This document shows positions 1 to 20,198 of a DNA stretch of 20,510 nucleotides, piece after piece (the stretch's first letter is position 1; each line of letters opens with the position of its first letter). Both the position numbers and the translations under genes were made by a program. This DNA is from a virus. Location: IMG/VR virus record IMGVR_UViG_3300021061_000143, positions 1 to 20,510 of that record; one strand, written 5' to 3'. The notes below the pieces were generated by a model. That model saw only the letters and a list, made by a program, of their open reading frames with translations. It had not been told where the DNA came from and made no database searches.

Positions 1-3000
1 ATAGTGCTGGCTTCTGGCGATATATTAGCTAAAGCCTCTAGATATTTTTGTTGATAATTTGTTACATCTTGTAATTGTTTTTGATAAGTATTAATTTGAT
101 ATTGAATAGCAGCAGCTTGAGAATCCTTTTCAGTGGGCGCATTATCTCCAAGCTGCTCTTTTTTCATTTCTGTGCGACCTTTAGTAGTCTGCAACTCCCT
201 AATAAATTGCATATACTCTTTGCCAGTGTTGAGCGCAATTACTCTTAACTGTAAAGCCGTGGTTATTAATGCCTCCATTGCTTTTTTCTGATCTACTAAA
301 GCATTGCTAATTTCCGATTCTGCTCCTACAGCATCTTCTCTAGCTTTAGCATAAGCCTGAGCAGCAATCAATACTTCTTTCATTTGTGGCGATATGTCAT
401 CACCCCTATTGCTTAGAATTTGATTAATTACTTCAGAACCTTTTTTGTCAGCCTCATTTAATAATGAATAAATGCCCCCACCCATGCCACCCATTTCAGG
501 TAACTGCATAACTCTGTTGATTTCAGCATAATCAACAGAATACATATCAGTTCTAAGCTTATTAATTTGTTTTTGATAATCTTTTAACTTTTCACTTGCT
601 GTATCTATGCCACTGCTACGGTTTTGCCAATCTAAAGAGCCTTGTGTGATGTCACCAGATAGGTATTGACTATTATTTTTTAATTGCTCTTGTATTTGCT
701 TACTTTGAGCTTTAAAGTTAATACCAGTTAATGAAACATTGAACAGTTTTACTGAGTTAGCTAACTTAATGAATGATGTATCTAAAGATTTAATAGCATT
801 ATCATATTTGGCTATCAAGCCTTCACCCAATTCTATGTTTTTGTTTAGCTTCGCCTTATTATTTTCAGTATTTTGTAGTATTTCTGCTGTTTTTTCGGGA
901 TATAGTTGAATGGCATTTTTAGCATATTCATCTAAACCTTCAAGTAAAGCTTTATCATTCTCTACCTGTTTTCTCAAAGATTCTATATCACCATCAAATG
1001 TGACGTTAAGAATCATATTTTGTTCTTTAGTTAGCGCTGCGATTTCTTCTTTAATAGCAGTAGATTTGCTGGTATCTCCTTGTTCTTTAGCTAATGTGTC
1101 CTGAAGTTTTAAATCCCTAATCCTATTTTCAATAGCTTGAACTTTCTCCTCTACTTTATCGAGCAGTGGTGTTTTATTGGTTTCGAGATCTGCAATAAAG
1201 TCTTTTAAATACTCAATTTCTTTTCTTGAATCTTTAAATAGTTCTATATTTCCAGTTTTCCCAGCTTTTGAATTAATAATTTGAGTTCTTTCCAGTTGTT
1301 TTTTAAGTTCTGCTAGGCTTGATTCTGGGCTAGAAAACTTCATTTCTAATCTGGGTTTAATTATACCAATATTTTCAGATGATTTTTTAAATGTTTCTTC
1401 AAGTCGCCATTTATCCATATTTAGATCATGTACGTCAAAGAATCTCTTAGGATTAAGGTTTCGCAATCCCCGTCCTAAGCCATCACCAATATCACCAAGT
1501 GTAAAATTATTACCAATTTCTGAAGTTTCTTTTAATGTTTTGTTTAATGTTTTTGCTGAGTTTTCTAAGTCTTTTATTTGTTGTGAACCAGCAGTAAAGA
1601 TCTTAAAGACTGCATATAAACTACCAAGAACTACAGCAGGCACAATTAAAGATTGTAACCCACCTTTTATAGCAGCCCCTAATGTTCTAAAGCTATTCAC
1701 GCCATCTAGCTCTAAAGCTTTCAAAACAGCCGCAGCTAGTTTTGTTTCAATTATTAGGTTCCATAATGCGGGTATAACTTTAGACGCTACAACTAAACCG
1801 ATAGATGTTAAGCCAATACCAATTAAATCAGTATTTTTTCCTAAAACGTCTAAAGCTTTATTTACTACTGGGAACCCGACAGCCTTCATTACCACGGCTG
1901 TAGGTTTGCCCATGTTCTCTCTAAATATTGTTAATTTATTATCAAGCTTGGTGATTTGGGATTCTAAACTACTGGCAGCAGCTTCCAAACCACCAGCACT
2001 TTCACGCTCTAGTTGTGCTGCCATCTTAGGTAATAAGTCTTGAGATAGCACTTGACCGCTTTCAATAAGTTTAAATAACTCTGCTGTCGTGACACCTAGC
2101 GCCCTAGCTGCAATATGAGAGGCGCCAGCTAAACCACTATCAGATAGCTGCTGGTTAAGTTCTTCCATGCTCACTTTCCCTTTAGAAGCCATCTGACTTA
2201 CGGCAACTAAAGCATTCTTCTGTTGTTCCATACTAGCGTCACGAACCGATAGCCCCTTCTGGAAGCCCTCAAAAATAGCATCAGTTTGTGGTTCTAGCTG
2301 AGTACCCCTAACAGCGCTAGAGAACGTCTTGTATCCCTCTCTGAGTGCCTTGTAGGACGTTCCCAATGTATCAGCTTGCTGTTCTAATCCGCTTAGAACT
2401 TTAGCACCATCTTTACCAGTGGCAAACCCGATCGCTGTGGAAAATCGTTCAGCTTCAACGGCTGCTTGAAAAGCTGTTTTGCCAAAATTGACAAAAACAT
2501 CACCTAGCGTGTTGATCCCCATTACCATTAAAGCAGTTCTTCCAATGTCACCCAACATATTTTTGAACTGTTTCAACCAAGGCATTTTTTCAACAAGATC
2601 GTCAATACTAGATCTTACCGCTTTAAATGCTGCTGGTACTGTAGGGAGGTTATCGATAGCCACATCTGGAATGCGCAGGTAGTCGCCTTGAGACAATCCC
2701 GCATATTCTGATTTAAGATTCTGAACGCGTTCCGCTAATTCTTGTAATGCCTCCGATTCCTCAGGGAATAGTTCACCAGGGGTTTGCTTAAGAGCATTAA
2801 GTAGGTTTGCATATTCTTGGCTTAATTGATTAAACTCTTGCCTAATCTCACCTATTCTTTTTTTGTTTTCAGGTGATATTATTGTATTAAGGAAATCAAA
2901 AACCTTATTTCCAGGTAATTTTAAGTTTGTTGGCAAATTCCCTAAATCTGCCTTAGTTAGTGGTGGATTTTTAGGAATAGATGCTGGAATTGGTCTAACT

Positions 3001-6000: not shown

Positions 6001-9000
6001 GTTATTTGGCTACTGGCATCAACTTCTCCAGAGTCACCAGGAACAAAACTTAACAAACTGTTAACAACGTCTAACTGTTTTTGAGCTTTAGCTAGTCTTT
6101 CAGAAATAGTGGTTTCTATTTGAGTAAAAGATGTGACAATTTCTTCAGAAATTTTACTTAAGTCTGGTGTTTCAGGAATGCTAACATTAATTGTTTTCTC
6201 TGATTGCTGAAGATCCTCTTTTAACTTAAAGGCTTCGTTCATCAACGCAATATATTCTTCTATACCAGCATCATCGACTAAGCTATTTTGTAATTCTACA
6301 GGATTAACGCTTTCAGGCATGGTAATGGGAGAACCCAGAGCTTGCATAATCGCCTTGTCTAGGTCTTGATTAATTCCTAAGCCTGACTGAGCTAACTCAT
6401 CAAAAGCTACCGTGTCAGTTCTTCCTGAAGCCTCATATTTAATAATAGTGTCAATAAATTTATCTAGAAACTGACTAAGCTTTTGAGCATCAGTCAAATT
6501 ACCTTGAATGCCCTTTCTTTTAACATAGGGATTAAGATCCTTAGTTTTTTTAGATAAGTCTTTTAGTTTTGAAAATGGATTATTTTTTAGAACTTCTTGA
6601 AACTTAGCATTTCCTTCTTCGGTTTTACCCTCGGCAATTAGCTTTTTGGCTTCAATGAGCGGTTTAATAAAATCACGTTTAAATATTTCAACCTCTTTTT
6701 CATACATCTGGAAAAAAGCCAATAATGCTTTTTCTTTCTGTTTATCAGTGTCAGTTGTATAAGTTTTTTGAGAGTGTTTACCACGCATTTCGCCATAGGT
6801 GGGTTGTTGACCTACTGTGGGTATATTGGCAGCATCCCACAAGAAAGAACCAGAATTAAGTTTTCCCTTATCATCAATATATTGTTCACCCGACATTTCT
6901 TCATATTTGCGAACCTCTTCTAAGAAAGCTTCCCAAACAGGCTTCATCTCATCTTTGTATTCTCTGACTGGAACCTCTTTATCTTTCCAAAGTTGCACCA
7001 AACTGCCAAAATCGCCAACAGGTAAGTTAATATCAGCAGCCGATTTTTCCAATGTGCTTTCTAATTTTTCAAGGCTTTCTAAATTAGGATCAATAATATC
7101 TAAAACATTTTCAGGAAAGACGGGCTTCTCGCCTTTCATTTTTGCAATTTCATTAACAATGCTATTTAATAGTGGCACTAATTCGGTATTCTTATGAGCC
7201 ATAAAATTAGACTTTCGAGAACCCAAACCAGGCAAACCACTTAAACCCAAACCCTGTGTTATTTTTCCTTGTAGTATCTGTTTGACTTTGGGTAAGTCTT
7301 CTTTTATTCCTTTAGCTTCAGCATCATTTAACTTAGCATTTTTAAATTTACTTAATTGTTTGATAACATCAGATAAACCCGATGTATCTATTTGTTCACC
7401 AATATTTTTATTAACTTCCTCAATATTAGAAAATATGTCTTCAACAGATTGAATATATTCATTAATTTCAACTGTGGGATCTAGTTCTGATATATTATTG
7501 AATATTTCAACTAATTTTGAACTATCAGCACCATCAATCTCTTGACCCTTTAAGAATTGGGAAACCTGTATTAAAAAATCTGAAATAGGCTTCCCCAAAT
7601 CCCCTATCATCTCCCCTACTTTGTGTTCATATCCCCAATCAGGCAATATAGTTTGCTGACCAGAAGGAAACAACGCCCCAGCAGGTAAACCAGGCTCTCT
7701 TTCTAAATTTTGATATTCCTTAGAATTAGGATCTATTTTGCCATCATATAAACCTTTACCATAAAAACCCTTACCTACATTATCAATGTTGCCCATGTAA
7801 GCTTTAAACTGTACTGGGTCATCCTTGCTTTGTTTCGACGTTGCCGTTAATCCTGCCATTGGTGTTCCAATCGCAATTGCTTTAACTCTACTCAACGCTT
7901 TCTTAAGGTGTGGGTAGGTTTTAGCCATTTGATTGAGTATGGCTACAGCTTCTTCAACAATAAATCCACCACCAGAAGCACCGCCTAGTAAAATATCTTT
8001 ATCTGGGAAAGCTTGAGCCGCACCCATAGCTTTAGACGCCATTTTAATAGCATCTTCGCTATAACCTTTCTCGTGCTGCCTCAATACCCCTTCTATCGGG
8101 TGGGGATTGGCTAAATTACCAATTACAGCATCAACTTTTTCAACGCCAAAAGTTTCCTTTAATGCTTCTTGGTTTTCTTTAATCCAAGGTAATAATTGTT
8201 CTCTTACCACCTTATTAAAAACCCCTTGTTCTAAATCTTCTACCGATACTGTAGTACGAGGTTCAACAGTATCCATAAAGGCGTTGGGGAATAAGGCTTT
8301 AAATCCAGCACCCATCGTGCCTGTAGTTTCTGTTGCTGGCGCACCCCGCTTTGATTGGGCTGGTGCAGTACCACCCACAAAAATACCGATTCCTTCAGCT
8401 TGTTCAATCTCCTTACGGTTTTTCTCGTAATAATTTTGATGAATTTTCGCTTGCTTTTGAGAAATTCCCGCAGATTCTCCTAATTGTACCCGCTTTCTAA
8501 TTCTTAGCGGTTGTGCCGCCATTTTGAGGGTTGCACCTAACGCTCTAGCAGTATCTTCCTCAATTACGCTCTCAAACCTATTTCTAATCTTCTGTAAGCT
8601 ATCAGCTACAATCTTTTCTATTTCACTTTTAGGAGCGTTGGGTAAATTAACCTGCGCCCTCGCCACCATGTAGTCTTCTAGTTCAGCAAAGAAGGTAGGA
8701 TCGGTAAAGTTATTATAAAAAGCATCAATATTCTTTTTAGCTAGATTAGCCGCAGTTTTAGTACCTTTGGGGAAATTAAATAAATTTACAAATGCTGAAT
8801 CTAAAATAACCTGGAAACGCTTAATCTTATTCTTTAAGTCTAATCCTAAAATTCTACCGTGTTGCTCAAAATCAATACCAATGGTTTTAGCAACACCGTT
8901 ACCAACTCTGCTACCAATAGAATGACCAGCCCCTTGTACTACACCAGATGCTGCATTATTAACTAAAGCTCTTAAACCTCTTGCTGGCTTAGTCTCTCTG

Positions 9001-9455
9001 GTATTTTCCTTAATTAGATGTGGAAGTTCATCAATTACATTTAGTATTTTGTATAATGCGGTGACGGTAGCATAGTTAGCTCTTTCTTGGTTCTTCTGAA
9101 CAGCCGTCTGGGTAGTCCTAACACTTACACTCATCCCATTAAGCGATCGCACTTCTTTAAGCGACTGCTTCAAGCGAACTAACTCAGCATCGTTAACCCG
9201 TACTGCTAATGGTGAGATGTTCCACTCTTGTTGGATTGAACGAGTGTGCTTGCGCTTTGATTCTAAATGTTTATTGAGATCTGTTAATCGGCTGTCATCT
9301 ACTTTCGTGGTGACTTTTAAGCTATTTAGTCGGTTTAATGTTTTTTCGATAAGTGCTGTTTGTTGTTTGGCACGACTTAAAGCAGCATCAATTACTTTTG
9401 ATGCGTTATCTTCCGCTTTAAGCTCTAAAATTAAACTTTCTAAAGTAACCGCCAT
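1..9455 (-). CDS. Giant tail tape measure protein with embedded alpha/beta-hydrolase-like domain (3' end outside window)
   Basis: This single open frame begins MAVTLESLILELKAEDNAS at 9455 and stays open for 3,151 codons to the window edge, so the C-terminus is missing. Tape measure proteins set tail length and line the tube before ejection. A tape-measure domain of the TIGR02675/TMP_3 kind lies at about residues 2320-2485 (SKGKVSMEELNQQL, then AARALGVTTAELFKLIESG and LLPKMAAQLE). A phage-typical SPSKKMRRLGG segment followed by a glycine-rich stretch lies near residue 1619. Residues about 355-615 look like an alpha/beta hydrolase: strand IFVGG, nucleophile elbow GASGG (Ser494), strand AIAIGTPMAG, Asp558 and His611. 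Gly/Ala-rich hydrophobic stretches lie at about 1150-1340, 1672-1695, 1753-1777 and 2542-2618. The rest is mostly charged and probably coiled coil. It follows the tail chaperone genes, as expected. The tape measure call is firm; the hydrolase activity is inferred from motifs. Confidence 0.93.
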   Translation of the reverse strand, partial: MAVTLESLILELKAEDNASKVIDAALSRAKQQTALIEKTLNRLNSLKVTTKVDDSRLTDLNKHLESKRKHTRSIQQEWNISPLAVRVNDAELVRLKQSLKEVRSLNGMSVSVRTTQTAVQKNQERANYATVTALYKILNVIDELPHLIKENTRETKPARGLRALVNNAASGVVQGAGHSIGSRVGNGVAKTIGIDFEQHGRILGLDLKNKIKRFQVILDSAFVNLFNFPKGTKTAANLAKKNIDAFYNNFTDPTFFAELEDYMVARAQVNLPNAPKSEIEKIVADSLQKIRNRFESVIEEDTARALGATLKMAAQPLRIRKRVQLGESAGISQKQAKIHQNYYEKNRKEIEQAEGIGIFVGGTAPAQSKRGAPATETTGTMGAGFKALFPNAFMDTVEPRTTVSVEDLEQGVFNKVVREQLLPWIKENQEALKETFGVEKVDAVIGNLANPHPIEGVLRQHEKGYSEDAIKMASKAMGAAQAFPDKDILLGGASGGGFIVEEAVAILNQMAKTYPHLKKALSRVKAIAIGTPMAGLTATSKQSKDDPVQFKAYMGNIDNVGKGFYGKGLYDGKIDPNSKEYQNLEREPGLPAGALFPSGQQTILPDWGYEHKVGEMIGDLGKPISDFLIQVSQFLKGQEIDGADSSKLVEIFNNISELDPTVEINEYIQSVEDIFSNIEEVNKNIGEQIDTSGLSDVIKQLSKFKNAKLNDAEAKGIKEDLPKVKQILQGKITQGLGLSGLPGLGSRKSNFMAHKNTELVPLLNSIVNEIAKMKGEKPVFPENVLDIIDPNLESLEKLESTLEKSAADINLPVGDFGSLVQLWKDKEVPVREYKDEMKPVWEAFLEEVRKYEEMSGEQYIDDKGKLNSGSFLWDAANIPTVGQQPTYGEMRGKHSQKTYTTDTDKQKEKALLAFFQMYEKEVEIFKRDFIKPLIEAKKLIAEGKTEEGNAKFQEVLKNNPFSKLKDLSKKTKDLNPYVKRKGIQGNLTDAQKLSQFLDKFIDTIIKYEASGRTDTVAFDELAQSGLGINQDLDKAIMQALGSPITMPESVNPVELQNSLVDDAGIEEYIALMNEAFKLKEDLQQSEKTINVSIPETPDLSKISEEIVTSFTQIETTISERLAKAQKQLDVVNSLLSFVPGDSGEVDASSQITSLDQFGFKQAGQIAGKVAGGGAVALQKGTNVAVGALLPAVKGLYGVVKGVENITLAMLPGGRMAKGLLQQTAVPAAAFGAATHFVPGGGMLAEGATHLAQGALNPLLAGAGQELALSIGGAIQGSLEMVPLVGHQLGTAITQGLTSSLGAASGAAAEIGGSAAVAIGGGKALLGAGGQAAKAVLNPSNQKEIQALPQSTRAIEAKTEESLTRALKAARGVIAASKELKQIKGSGGDKAKALAATIVDNVGRAITEVDSAIAALPQGIGRMSGEGAELASYKGALVQVEKSANAYMANKADEIKAIEVFARSLEADIPEPTVSRAGLVSQGVSATKSIAGNFFSTQKDIDRVQKTDPEEAKRLALNILAQAEDARIEIERLASNLSKKEKTKPVNNAVKDARSKITSAEKKAKSIVGNVNPEAAMEQLGEFAGGGLSLGLRGSIGDLSKVSTSLVNAVLTTVKTGFEIASPSKKMRRLGGFTGVGFVLGLKDSLSVGVGVAKRELSSLTQSFDEAVEKAKLAGKQIAAAGLITGGILTGGITVQPGLAEQPANPIIQAQNQSTNSNILSEQTPTIISGKDFEKVKVEAMKKTFGEFDKTFRPMVYGVGALLAGGVLLIVGNIIDSLITTLRDGEEESKKININSGIFNELVIKLKNINKLPQLLSVVIGEFFKNINNGLEGVVNNIRGRLTAFRKKKELGTSPVNIIDVEKVQSEPQPVSEVVSSNSEQTVKNATTNVEKEVAATVEAIEVVYGEIVEAVAEVRKGIPQNLNLLPAGISPLALLPESKPQVVEVKPISFDETSLTVFAEIEQAQKEVKKLQEEYKALGEVEISTANIIEPFEALTNLAYITEGAIKTQEELKESLEGSKSKALIPHPELFNKQSSNNTNSFDPKRKLNEIRKELHLLGAEYKASMDKINKNPNKFLPEEVKIAINAKKRIRELREEYEKLIATQNESNNQQNNTNNNNIGEPPKPNNIPEYLKPKPQSRALIVRDSVALDEVRPIPASIPKNPPLTKADLGNLPTNLKLPGNKVFDFLNTIISPENKKRIGEIRQEFNQLSQEYANLLNALKQTPGELFPEESEALQELAERVQNLKSEYAGLSQGDYLRIPDVAIDNLPTVPAAFKAVRSSIDDLVEKMPWLKQFKNMLGDIGRTALMVMGINTLGDVFVNFGKTAFQAAVEAERFSTAIGFATGKDGAKVLSGLEQQADTLGTSYKALREGYKTFSSAVRGTQLEPQTDAIFEGFQKGLSVRDASMEQQKNALVAVSQMASKGKVSMEELNQQLSDSGLAGASHIAARALGVTTAELFKLIESGQVLSQDLLPKMAAQLERESAGGLEAAASSLESQITKLDNKLTIFRENMGKPTAVVMKAVGFPVVNKALDVLGKNTDLIGIGLTSIGLVVASKVIPALWNLIIETKLAAAVLKALELDGVNSFRTLGAAIKGGLQSLIVPAVVLGSLYAVFKIFTAGSQQIKDLENSAKTLNKTLKETSEIGNNFTLGDIGDGLGRGLRNLNPKRFFDVHDLNMDKWRLEETFKKSSENIGIIKPRLEMKFSSPESSLAELKKQLERTQIINSKAGKTGNIELFKDSRKEIEYLKDFIADLETNKTPLLDKVEEKVQAIENRIRDLKLQDTLAKEQGDTSKSTAIKEEIAALTKEQNMILNVTFDGDIESLRKQVENDKALLEGLDEYAKNAIQLYPEKTAEILQNTENNKAKLNKNIELGEGLIAKYDNAIKSLDTSFIKLANSVKLFNVSLTGINFKAQSKQIQEQLKNNSQYLSGDITQGSLDWQNRSSGIDTASEKLKDYQKQINKLRTDMYSVDYAEINRVMQLPEMGGMGGGIYSLLNEADKKGSEVINQILSNRGDDISPQMKEVLIAAQAYAKAREDAVGAESEISNALVDQKKAMEALITTALQLRVIALNTGKEYMQFIRELQTTKGRTEMKKEQLGDNAPTEKDSQAAAIQYQINTYQKQLQDVTNYQQKYLEALANISPEAST
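2000..2500 (-). other. Tape measure (TMP_3-like) domain
   Basis: The stretch encoding about residues 2320-2485 holds the recognisable tape measure signature: an S-K-G-K-V-S-M-E-E-L core, then A-A-R-A-L-G-V-T-T-A-E-L, then a Q-V-L-S-Q-D-L-L-P segment. In many siphovirus and prophage tape measures this domain lies near the N-terminus. Here more than 2,300 residues precede it, which implies a large N-terminal extension containing the hydrolase-like domain. Confidence 0.8.
7620..8395 (-). other. Predicted alpha/beta-hydrolase (lipase/esterase-like) domain inside the tape measure protein
   Basis: Residues about 355-612 of the tape measure protein carry the ordered signatures of a serine alpha/beta hydrolase. 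There is a hydrophobic strand with a glycine turn (GIGIFVGGTAP), then KDILLGGASGGGF matching GXSXG with Ser494, then strand VKAIAIGTPMAGL, which resembles the GTP turn of lipases. Next comes a strand ending in an acidic turn (FKAYMGNIDNVG, Asp558), and finally DWGYEHKVGEM with His611. The spacing and order Ser-Asp-His fit the family. Substrate is unknown; an envelope lipid or acylated polysaccharide is only a guess. Confidence 0.62.
9143..9150. repeat. HIP1 palindrome GCGATCGC (one of six)
   Basis: GCGATCGC occurs at 9143-9150, 10510-10517, 11236-11243, 16682-16689, 17042-17049 and 20426-20433. This octamer is strongly over-represented in many cyanobacterial genomes and supports a cyanobacterial host. 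None is present in the first 9.1 kb, the rest of the tape measure gene. Confidence 0.85.
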
Positions 9456-11135: not shown

Positions 11136-11879
11136 CTATATTAGTTTGATGTGGTTACTAATTCTCTCTTGAGCTATCTGGTAATAATTTTTGTCTTTCT
11201 CAATGCCAATGTAGTTACGGTTGGTGTTAATTGCTGCGATCGCCGTTGTACCAGAACCAATGGTAAAGTCTAGAACTGTTTCGCCGTCATTGGTGTAGGT
11301 TTTGATTAAATATTCAAATAATGAGATTGGTTTACCCGTGGGGTGAAAGCATTTTTCTTTTTTTGTTTTTATACAGGAATTTGGATAATTTGTAAATTTT
11401 GTAATATATTCTTTTTGACATAGTGTATTGTTCCCATGATCACCCATAACTTCACCAGCCGACCCCATTTTCCTAACTCTACTTTTTGGTTTTATTTCCT
11501 TCAACCCTTGTGGGTTGTATATTGGTAAACATTTGTAAAAAACTAAAACATCTTCAAAACCTTTAAGTGGCATTCTATTAGCATTTGCAAACCCCGTTGA
11601 ATAATCCTTGTCCCAGATCCATGTATATCTAAACATTTTCATATTGCTAGATATTAAATTTGTAGTAAAAGGTTGAGCAGCAGTTAAAACAATAGCCCCA
11701 TTTGGCTTAATAACCCGCTTCAGTTGCTCCCACATCGGTTCTAAAGGAATAATCGAATCCCATTTACAGGCTGTCGTTCCATAAGGTGGATCACATAAAA
11801 TCATGTCAATCGATCCATCTGGTATATCCCTCATCACCTCTAAGCAATCCCCTAGGTATATTTGGTTTATTTCAAGCAT
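11136..11879 (-). CDS. DNA methyltransferase, beta-class N6-adenine/N4-cytosine type
   Basis: A 247-residue SAM-dependent DNA methyltransferase. Catalytic motif IV DPPY is at residues 30-33 (LCDPPYGTTACKW); HPTGKP (179-184) starts the motif X-like helix; the SAM-binding motif I is VLDFTIGSGTT (202-212), a variant of the common DPFxGSGTT. The order catalytic motif first, SAM motif last marks the beta class. No restriction partner is seen beside it, so it is an orphan enzyme, probably protecting phage DNA or altering its expression. It lies between a hypothetical gene and the tail chaperone, 30 bases upstream of the latter, on the same strand. The target sequence cannot be read from the protein by eye. 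Confidence 0.92.
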   Translation of the reverse strand: MLEINQIYLGDCLEVMRDIPDGSIDMILCDPPYGTTACKWDSIIPLEPMWEQLKRVIKPNGAIVLTAAQPFTTNLISSNMKMFRYTWIWDKDYSTGFANANRMPLKGFEDVLVFYKCLPIYNPQGLKEIKPKSRVRKMGSAGEVMGDHGNNTLCQKEYITKFTNYPNSCIKTKKEKCFHPTGKPISLFEYLIKTYTNDGETVLDFTIGSGTTAIAAINTNRNYIGIEKDKNYYQIAQERISNHIKLI

Positions 11880-12381: not shown

Positions 12382-13374
12382 TTAGTGTAGCTCAGTTCCG
12401 CCTTTCCGAAGTAAGTAACGATCACTTATTAACTTCAGCACTACCCGTCCAACTTCTAAATCTGTTCTCTCAATCACAGGTTGAACTACAATACCTTCCA
12501 TCATGCAATCGCTGCTCAGTACGCTATCAGCATTGTTAAACTGTGAAACAATCTCCCAACTATAAGAACCATGAAAAAGTAGTGGAACTCGTGGTAATGA
12601 AAAATCTTCACAGAATTTCACAAACTCATCATAATTTAAAAACTTTCCATCTCTCTTTACAGCAAATAAAGCAAAATCAATCTTTCCGTTCTTTAAACCA
12701 TATTTAATATCCTGAACGCCATATATTTCACCAAACACTTGTGTATTAGACGGTAGATTATGTAAGTTGGGGTTTTCATTGTATACCCTCACATAAACCA
12801 GAGCCTTATTGTTGCTATTATTCTTCCAGAAATAGTTATGGCTTCCTATATGCGGTGTTCCCTCAGCATCTACCATGACAGTAAAGTTAGTACCGTGCAG
12901 TTTCTCCGTCACTACCACTTCTTCACCATCAATAAAGATATCCCGATATCTTTTTAAATTCTCTGGACTGGGAAATTTGTACTGAGCGATGGGCGATTCC
13001 ATGTCCCCATTCATTGATTGGGAGATGGGATATTCGTACTTAGTCACTCCAAAATATTCGGTATAGTCGTCTCCCACGTTTCCTGTAAAATCCTCACCAA
13101 CAGGAATCAGCAACCCTTCAGAAAAGATGCCCCGTAGCTTTGCTGCTCTTAGCTTTTTAGAGTAGTGGGGACGAATGCCAAACTTATCTAGCCACTCATC
13201 ACCAATCACGCTATCAATGGGGAAATAGAATGCTAAATCACCTGGTTTAAAGTTGCCTTTGCCAGTCACTACTTGATAAGCCATACCCTCAATGGTAGCA
13301 ATGTCTAACCTATCTGCATTGGGGTGGGGAACGATATTGTTGATTCTGACAACTTCTACCTTGAAAACACTCAT
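12382..13374 (-). CDS. RNA ligase, Rnl5 (Deinococcus RNA ligase)-like
   Basis: A 330-residue ATP-dependent RNA ligase. Residues 1 to about 110 look like the N-terminal OB-type module seen in the Deinococcus radiodurans enzyme (VEVVRINNIVPHPNADRLDI, KPGDLAFYFPIDS). The nucleotidyltransferase core follows: motif I EKLHGTN (157-163, Lys158 the AMP-accepting lysine), motif III FGEIYG (214-219), motif IV EGIVV (293-297) and motif V LKLIS (313-317, Lys314). All key motifs are present, so it should be active in sealing RNA nicks. Phage RNA ligases often repair tRNAs cut by host anticodon nucleases; that role is inference here. The gene has a terminator after it and a promoter-like TATAAT before it (13410-13405), so it may be expressed apart from the late operon. 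Confidence 0.88.
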   Translation of the reverse strand: MSVFKVEVVRINNIVPHPNADRLDIATIEGMAYQVVTGKGNFKPGDLAFYFPIDSVIGDEWLDKFGIRPHYSKKLRAAKLRGIFSEGLLIPVGEDFTGNVGDDYTEYFGVTKYEYPISQSMNGDMESPIAQYKFPSPENLKRYRDIFIDGEEVVVTEKLHGTNFTVMVDAEGTPHIGSHNYFWKNNSNNKALVYVRVYNENPNLHNLPSNTQVFGEIYGVQDIKYGLKNGKIDFALFAVKRDGKFLNYDEFVKFCEDFSLPRVPLLFHGSYSWEIVSQFNNADSVLSSDCMMEGIVVQPVIERTDLEVGRVVLKLISDRYLLRKGGTELH

Positions 13375-18776: not shown

Positions 18777-20198
18777 TTAATGATCCGCCCCTAACCAGTT
18801 CTTTCCTTCCGCCACAGTGCGATTAAAGTCAGCCCAGACTTTCTCATCCTTAAAGTAAAGGTGAACAGTTCCCTTCTTATATACTCTAATATCAAAGAAC
18901 TCACTGCTAAACTTATCCGTCAGATCTTGGCTAACCTCATCTGATCGGTGGCAGAACTCCGATATTGAATCTCTAACTGTTTTAATGTTCCCTATATCTT
19001 TACCAGAGAGATAGCAGCAACATTTATCTAAATCTTTTAGTAAATCATCAGATCGATAATTCAGCTTAAAGCTTCCCCAAGACCACTCAACAGCGTAAGG
19101 ATGGATAATCTTTTTGGCTATCTTGTAGCTTTTGTTGGTCTTCCAGCCTTCGTTGTGGATAATGTTCTTCTCGTGGTATTGGGTGATGCGATCGAATGTG
19201 TGGATCAGACATTCTTTCATAATTTCATGTCGGTTAAGGAAGAACATTTCTAAAATAGAAATTATATTTTCTTCAGTGAATGCCATAGTTGCGTTCTGCT
19301 GCGAGAATTCCTGAAACCTCTCTTGCATCTTACTGGTGGTGATTTCAGCAATGCGAGTCTTGCTAAATACCGTAGCCCAGAATCGAGACTTCAACACTAG
19401 TAGTTGTTCATTTAGGTCATATTTGTTTTCGAGGCTCTCGCGCTGATCTTTATCTGAGGTTTGGTAAACTGGGCTGCTAACGCCTTTCATGTAGAGGTCG
19501 AGTAGCTTTTGCTGTTTATTTCGTGCTTGAAGAATTGACACAGATGCGTTGTAGCGGCTCACCAAGTCTTTGATAGCATCATTATAAGCCAGCATACTTG
19601 GGTTTATTTCTTCTTCTTTCTCTAGATGATCTTGCTTAAGGTTGAGATCTTCAAATATCTTGCTTTCATCTTGCTTGAGCTTCTTCAGATAAATTAACGC
19701 CACCTCTACGTCTGTAGGTCTTTCAGCCGTTTTGAATGCCTGTCCTATGCTTTCCCACTCACCATGCTGCGAAATCAGTTCTAGGAGGTTCTGGCGCTCT
19801 TTCGTGTGAGGATTCTTTAAGGTTTGAGCATTAACAATCGCTACTAGCTCACCACCATCCCTCAATACCTGCCAAGCTCTCATAACGTGAGTAGAACCAT
19901 TAGAGAAAGGCGGGTTCATCACAATTACTGGAAAAGTTGTGGGTTCTGAGTAGGTCAGGAAGTCAGTTCCAATAACCGTATAGCCTTTACCCTGCAAAAT
20001 AGAGCGTAATTCTGGCTCAATTTCAATCGCATAAAAGTCACTCTTGCGGTAGTAGCGTTTGTGAGTGTTCTTTATTTCATCTAGTAAATCGCCTTTGCCA
20101 GCACTCGGATCAAGTATGGGCGTTCCCCATTTCTTGATCTTAGCCGCCATTTGAGCTATTACAGGCTGGGGAGTGGGGAAGAATTCTGAATTGAACAT
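18777..20198 (-). CDS. DUF4942-type protein with N-terminal adenine methyltransferase-like domain
   Basis: A 473-residue two-part protein. The N-terminal ~170 residues form a SAM-dependent methyltransferase: FFPTPQPVIAQMA (6-18), motif I LDPSAGKGDLLDEI (29-42), acidic loop EIEPEL (59-64), and catalytic motif IV NPPF (95-98). A charged linker with coiled-coil character follows (about 175-250). The C-terminal part (about 260-470) resembles DUF4942, ending in FDIRVYKKGTVHLYFKDEKV. Phages and plasmids carry such fusions; NPPF suggests N6-adenine methylation, but the DUF4942 role is unknown. It is the second DNA-methyltransferase-like gene of the window. A 12-bp inverted repeat surrounds its probable -10 box. 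Confidence 0.85.
   Translation of the reverse strand: MFNSEFFPTPQPVIAQMAAKIKKWGTPILDPSAGKGDLLDEIKNTHKRYYRKSDFYAIEIEPELRSILQGKGYTVIGTDFLTYSEPTTFPVIVMNPPFSNGSTHVMRAWQVLRDGGELVAIVNAQTLKNPHTKERQNLLELISQHGEWESIGQAFKTAERPTDVEVALIYLKKLKQDESKIFEDLNLKQDHLEKEEEINPSMLAYNDAIKDLVSRYNASVSILQARNKQQKLLDLYMKGVSSPVYQTSDKDQRESLENKYDLNEQLLVLKSRFWATVFSKTRIAEITTSKMQERFQEFSQQNATMAFTEENIISILEMFFLNRHEIMKECLIHTFDRITQYHEKNIIHNEGWKTNKSYKIAKKIIHPYAVEWSWGSFKLNYRSDDLLKDLDKCCCYLSGKDIGNIKTVRDSISEFCHRSDEVSQDLTDKFSSEFFDIRVYKKGTVHLYFKDEKVWADFNRTVAEGKNWLGADH

Follow-up and report, generated by a model that had tools for sequence, protein, structure and literature searches.

Structure modeling and sequence comparison confirmed the prediction of an alpha/beta-hydrolase domain in a tape measure protein (TMP) encoded in the 20,510-nucleotide stretch of viral DNA analyzed here (the window); the domain spans residues ~335 to 650. 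Our preferred reading, to which we assign a probability of about 0.6, is that this N-terminal module of a cyanophage TMP is a catalytically competent cutinase/LysB-like hydrolase, namely, a virion-borne esterase or lipase with the predicted triad Ser494-Asp558-His611. Many cyanobacterial viruses have such an apparently intact lipase/esterase-like domain within the TMP, which determines tail length, and this suggests that an enzyme that cuts lipids or esters may reach the host by way of the tail at infection. Little is understood so far of how tailed phages pass their DNA through the membranes of diderm hosts, and a recurrent lipase/esterase-like module with conserved catalytic residues in TMPs is a concrete, testable candidate for a lipid- or acyl-directed entry step.

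The protein that contains the domain and its genomic context

The ORF that harbors the domain is located on the minus strand (positions 9455 to 3), has an ATG start, encodes at least 3,151 amino acids, and is open at the contig end. It contains a TMP_3 domain at residues 2327 to 2516 (Pfam PF20155, positions 1908 to 2477, minus strand) and matches several PHROG tape measure families. The E value of 3e-23 for TMP_3 and the PHROG matches in a very long ORF identify its product as a phage TMP, as the original prediction had proposed. No peptidoglycan-degrading domain was detected by Pfam in these 3,151 amino acids, and the C terminus lies beyond the contig end. The window contains 6 copies of the HIP1 sequence GCGATCGC, compared to ~0.1 expected in 20.5 kb, which supports a cyanobacterial host. 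HIP1 sites are absent from the relatives L154 to L156, L159 to L163, and L165, and their hosts may thus differ. Two genes close to the TMP gene are unusual for a tail region, encoding a DNA methyltransferase (phrog_67; positions 11136 to 11879) and an RNA ligase (phrog_968; positions 12382 to 13374). Positions 18777 to 20198 encode a DNA methyltransferase-like protein with full-length matches in Fusobacterium, Tunturiibacter, and Bacteroidota phages, and some of its phage matches are annotated as DUF4942.

Identification of the domain and its family by sequence searches

The domain, as delimited by AlphaFold2 and by profile matches of its relatives, spans positions 7506 to 8453 (minus strand). 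The original prediction had placed it at positions 7620 to 8395, which cover the core of a modeled domain that is wider. The ordered motifs that it had listed are all found at the residue numbers claimed. These are, on the minus strand, (i) the first beta strand with its Gly pair (IFVGG at residues 358 to 362, within GIFVGG at residues 357 to 362; positions 8370 to 8387), a candidate oxyanion-hole loop according to its conservation and the model strand, (ii) the GASGGG elbow with the nucleophile Ser494 (positions 7974 to 7976), (iii) AIAIGTP, (iv) Asp558 in MGNIDNVG (positions 7782 to 7784), the candidate triad acid, and (v) His611 in GYEH (positions 7623 to 7625), the candidate triad base.

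With the window domain as a single query sequence, the match to the Pfam Cutinase profile was only suggestive (E value of 0.051; 14 bits compared to a cut-off of 25.9). A tblastn search with the domain gave no match in INPHARED (50,697 phages) or PLSDB (72,556 plasmids). Exact-peptide scans gave no match in viral contigs for the window domain, the whole TMP, the RNA ligase, or the TMP_3 stretch, nor in genome contigs for the window domain. A sample of cyanobacterial genomes was then accessed via a PsbA query. Matches to the elbow region were found in 6 of 218 Nostocaceae genomes, every one inside an ORF of 1,456 to 3,175 amino acids, and profiles built from these relatives detect the domain with E values of 1e-10 to 1e-99 in ORFs of ~1,450 to 4,200 amino acids that are mostly TMP_3 fusions. 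The strong profile matches (E < 1e-10) in 391 Cyanobacteriales genomes equally fall in long ORFs. Using the alignment to define a search pattern, we found the domain in 21 viral contigs as well. Pfam matches of family members include Thioesterase (6.9e-6), Cutinase (5.6e-4), PGAP1, Lipase_3, and further families of this superfamily, of which Lipase_3 exceeds its cut-off in L137; the Cutinase score in L101 is 16.1 bits, below the cut-off of 25.9. Comparison with LysB using hhalign resulted in an E value of 0.001 and a probability of 20%, with an alignment around the elbows only, and the control gave an E value of 0.13. Weak Pfam matches to DUF4160, REST_helical, Oxidored_nitro, and GvpG were treated as chance, and genome matches with E values of 1e-3 to 1e-5 (e.g., L112 and L126, and C-terminal matches in L143/L144) were excluded from the family.

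Predicted fold

A structure model based on the single sequence had a pLDDT of 42.6 and was discarded. AlphaFold2 with a 16-row alignment, drawn entirely from the window and viral contigs, resulted in a model with a pLDDT of 72.7, a pTM of 0.70, and a core of alternating strands and helices. The first strand corresponds to residues 355 to 360, and the elbow is formed by a strand (model residues 163 to 169), Ser170 (equivalent to Ser494), and a helix (model residues 172 to 189). The matches listed by a Foldseek search of the PDB were all cutinases, with a probability of ~1, yet with weak E values (best, 4.9e-3). Nearly all of the best 50 solved structures were cutinases, and LysB of mycobacteriophage D29 was among them. 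VIA-align superimposed the cutinases with Z scores of 10.4 to 9.5 and an rmsd of ~3.4 Å over ~150 residues, and the Z score for D29 LysB was 9.7. One of the best-matching viral models is designated tape measure domain protein; as judged on length alone, gp047/gp048 of Aphanizomenon phage vB_AphaS-CL131 are probably also among the best matches. The stretches that carry Asp558 and His611 have pLDDT values below 50, and the assignment of the triad thus rests on conservation and order and not on geometry. On the basis of sequence and model, the domain belongs to the alpha/beta-hydrolase superfamily, the fold that had originally been proposed, and is predicted to be cutinase/LysB-like.

Two alternatives concern the activity of the domain. 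The fold matches include a structure of carbohydrate esterase family 5 (4psc), and the domain might be an esterase whose substrate is a polymer coat, namely, a sheath or extracellular polysaccharide that bears acetyl or acyl groups; it would in effect be a tail-carried deacetylase that is not directed at lipids. Filamentous cyanobacterial hosts make sheaths, and phage depolymerases can contain esterase domains (PMC9862828). However, surface depolymerases sit on fibers or spikes, outside the tube, and a TMP would meet the sheath late since it stays within the tube up to the time of ejection; we consider this activity unlikely. Processing of the TMP, or of a tail or host protein, by the domain acting as a serine peptidase or transacylase is quite improbable, as is delivery of the domain into the cell as an effector, since the closest folds are lipolytic and zero peptidases are among the matches listed. 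This holds although alpha/beta hydrolases include peptidases and thioesterases, one family copy weakly matches Hydrolase_4/S33, members match Thioesterase, and TMPs can be cleaved in assembly, as established for lambda gpH.

Conservation of the predicted active site and copies outside TMPs

The G-x-S-x-G elbow is invariant, as is Ser494 across the distinct viral copies and the TMP copies from genomes. Neither Ser nor His varies in any of the 16 rows of alignment A4. G362 is also invariant and G361 is conserved to at least 90%, while the window residues have a mean identity of only 32% in the alignment. In agreement with the roles that had been assigned to Ser494, Asp558, and His611, these residues are kept in 8 of the 8 closest relatives; Asp558 and His611 are alignable in the remaining copies, in which a D is found within one column. 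MAFFT had misplaced the window His in alignment A2, where we paired GYEH with EGHP by motif, and this pairing was confirmed by closer relatives. Between close relatives, dN/dS is 0.06 to 0.07 at a dS of ~0.9, indicating strong purifying selection. The conservation of the triad speaks for most copies being functional enzymes. A purely structural role, i.e., that of a pseudoenzyme for spacing or trimerizing the TMP, is very unlikely, because no complete TMP copy has lost the nucleophile Ser and the triad positions rank with the best conserved of a domain that otherwise diverges to ~20 to 35% identity, although some copies outside TMPs have lost Ser and His and the second copy in the L150 TMP is broken and lacks the elbow.

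Phage CL131 contains four copies of the domain, one in gp047 and three in gp048. Both proteins are annotated as hypothetical and carry Cys-rich CGxxCIPKxxKC motifs; they belong to the same domain family as the window domain but are separate from the TMP and encoded just before its gene, gp049, whereas the window domain is fused. In gp048, the Ser is missing from the third copy. Free-standing three-copy proteins are also found beside other large ORFs in Nostocaceae (L098 to L100), and in their third copies Cys replaces Ser and Gly replaces His. The loss of Ser in the third copies of CL131 and L098 to L100 indicates that part of the family has turned noncatalytic, and the latter replacements that nonenzymatic roles exist within it. 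The proteins at L098:7672-12114, L099:8858-14104, L100:8050-12417, and L171:11404-17828 are large, with up to three hydrolase copies and repeated CGxxCIPKxxKC motifs; the third copy of L171 has lost its Ser, and L099 also has a HipA/kinase-like match.

Distribution and architecture among TMPs

The domain precedes TMP_3 within one chain in 13 ORFs of Cyanobacteriales genomes (L096, L097, L101, L132 to L137, and L139 to L142). Of the 21 viral contigs, 16 likewise have it N-terminal to TMP_3. These numbers are not fully independent, since L147 seems to be identical to L097 (a contig of 31,209 bases) and several of the viral contigs nearly duplicate one another. In the other 5 viral contigs, TMP_3 is outside the sequence examined, and the order of hydrolase followed by TMP_3 holds wherever both are visible. 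Two copies of the domain are present in L135 and L137. The window TMP is homologous to L157 and L154 over residues ~23 to 1110, including the domain, and homology resumes at TMP_3. Four chains combine the N-terminal hydrolase with a C-terminal muralytic (peptidoglycan or cell-wall hydrolase) domain that is M23 in L137:2746-11793 (4.9e-15) and L148:8645-19150 (1.5e-11), VanY in L145:8855-18484 (2.6e-37), and Hydrolase_2 in L151:8657-16783 (1e-4). On contig G234:C29, the hydrolase is in an ORF of 1,647 amino acids (L138:6837-11777) and TMP_3 in a separate ORF of 1,587 amino acids (L213:3894-8654), ~12 kb apart.

Not all TMPs of this type contain the hydrolase. The sample of 391 genomes has 29 TMP_3 places above the Pfam cut-off, 10 of which have the domain in the same ORF. 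One further place (L210) is cut by the contig end, and 9 of 10 others that were searched at full sensitivity had no clear copy in the TMP_3 ORF. Since only about one-third of the TMP_3 TMPs in this sample carry the domain, the hydrolase is an optional module, and its lack in about two-thirds indicates that entry does not generally require it.

Proposed function

TMPs exit the tail when the DNA enters the host, and we infer that the hydrolase would be released together with the TMP. If enzymatically active, it may then hydrolyze esters in envelope lipids (glycolipids, lipid A, or phospholipids) or remove acyl groups from polymers of the envelope, which would help the DNA channel to form. For some siphophages, the C terminus of the TMP has been reported to lie closest to the tail tip. 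If this applies here, the hydrolase would emerge after the muralytic domains, and an inner-membrane or periplasmic target would be no less likely than the outer membrane; an N-terminal position fits an outer-membrane role poorly if the C terminus leaves first. To our knowledge, the enzymes known in TMPs act on peptidoglycan. A broader proposal, which we put forward tentatively and hold to be less probable than not, is that cyanobacterial siphophages have a class of TMPs that delivers a lipolytic alpha/beta hydrolase and peptidoglycan hydrolases in one polypeptide, corresponding to a tail-borne lipid-cutting entry step that is undescribed for Gram-negative-type hosts. The occurrence of the family in the isolated phage CL131 and in cyanobacterial genomes makes it open to expression and assay, and the domain annotates part of giant, mostly unassigned TMPs.

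Comparison with known systems

Cutinases and carbohydrate esterase family 5 are the best fold matches of the window domain and match it weakly in Pfam. The triad of cutinase is S120-D175-H188, with an Asp-His spacing of 13, whereas this spacing is 53 in the window domain. The latter also differs in a large insertion between the first-strand region and the elbow, and it lacks the cutinase disulfides, as residues 330 to 650 contain no Cys.

LysB is a cutinase-like phage esterase that acts on an outer membrane and has the triad S82, D166, and H240 (PMC6116114). Mycobacteriophage D29 LysB (gp12; PDB 3hc7), a mycolylarabinogalactan esterase, is, like the window domain, a phage-encoded cutinase-like alpha/beta hydrolase with a G-x-S-x-G elbow, and the order Ser-Asp-His with long gaps is common to both (84 and 74 residues in LysB, 64 and 53 in the window domain). 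By analogy, the LysB precedent shows that phages use a cutinase-like fold against envelope esters. However, sequence similarity between the two is marginal. LysB is a separate protein that acts on mycolate esters in lysis at the end of infection, encoded by a stand-alone gene beside those of lysin A and holin in phages of a mycobacterial host, whereas the window domain is fused within a cyanophage TMP on a contig with the cyanobacterial HIP1 signature. The window domain may work like the cutinase family and LysB, but with a sequence below the Cutinase cut-off, no disulfides, and a marginal match to the LysB profile we assign it to neither.

Enzymes in TMPs are already known. The TMP of TM4 carries a peptidoglycan hydrolase that helps entry (PMC1796659), and other TMP lysins are listed in a review (PMC6116005). 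No report of a lipase, cutinase, esterase, or beta-hydrolase domain in a TMP was found in open-access papers, with most subscription literature outside this coverage; within the papers searched, an alpha/beta hydrolase in a TMP is undescribed. The TMPs of TM4, T5 (pb2), and phiIPLA35 share with the window TMP an embedded envelope-type enzyme. Their enzymes target peptidoglycan and have lysozyme, transglycosylase, or peptidase folds, whereas the window domain is predicted to be an alpha/beta hydrolase, of a type that is located N-terminal to TMP_3 and can share its chain with muralytic domains.
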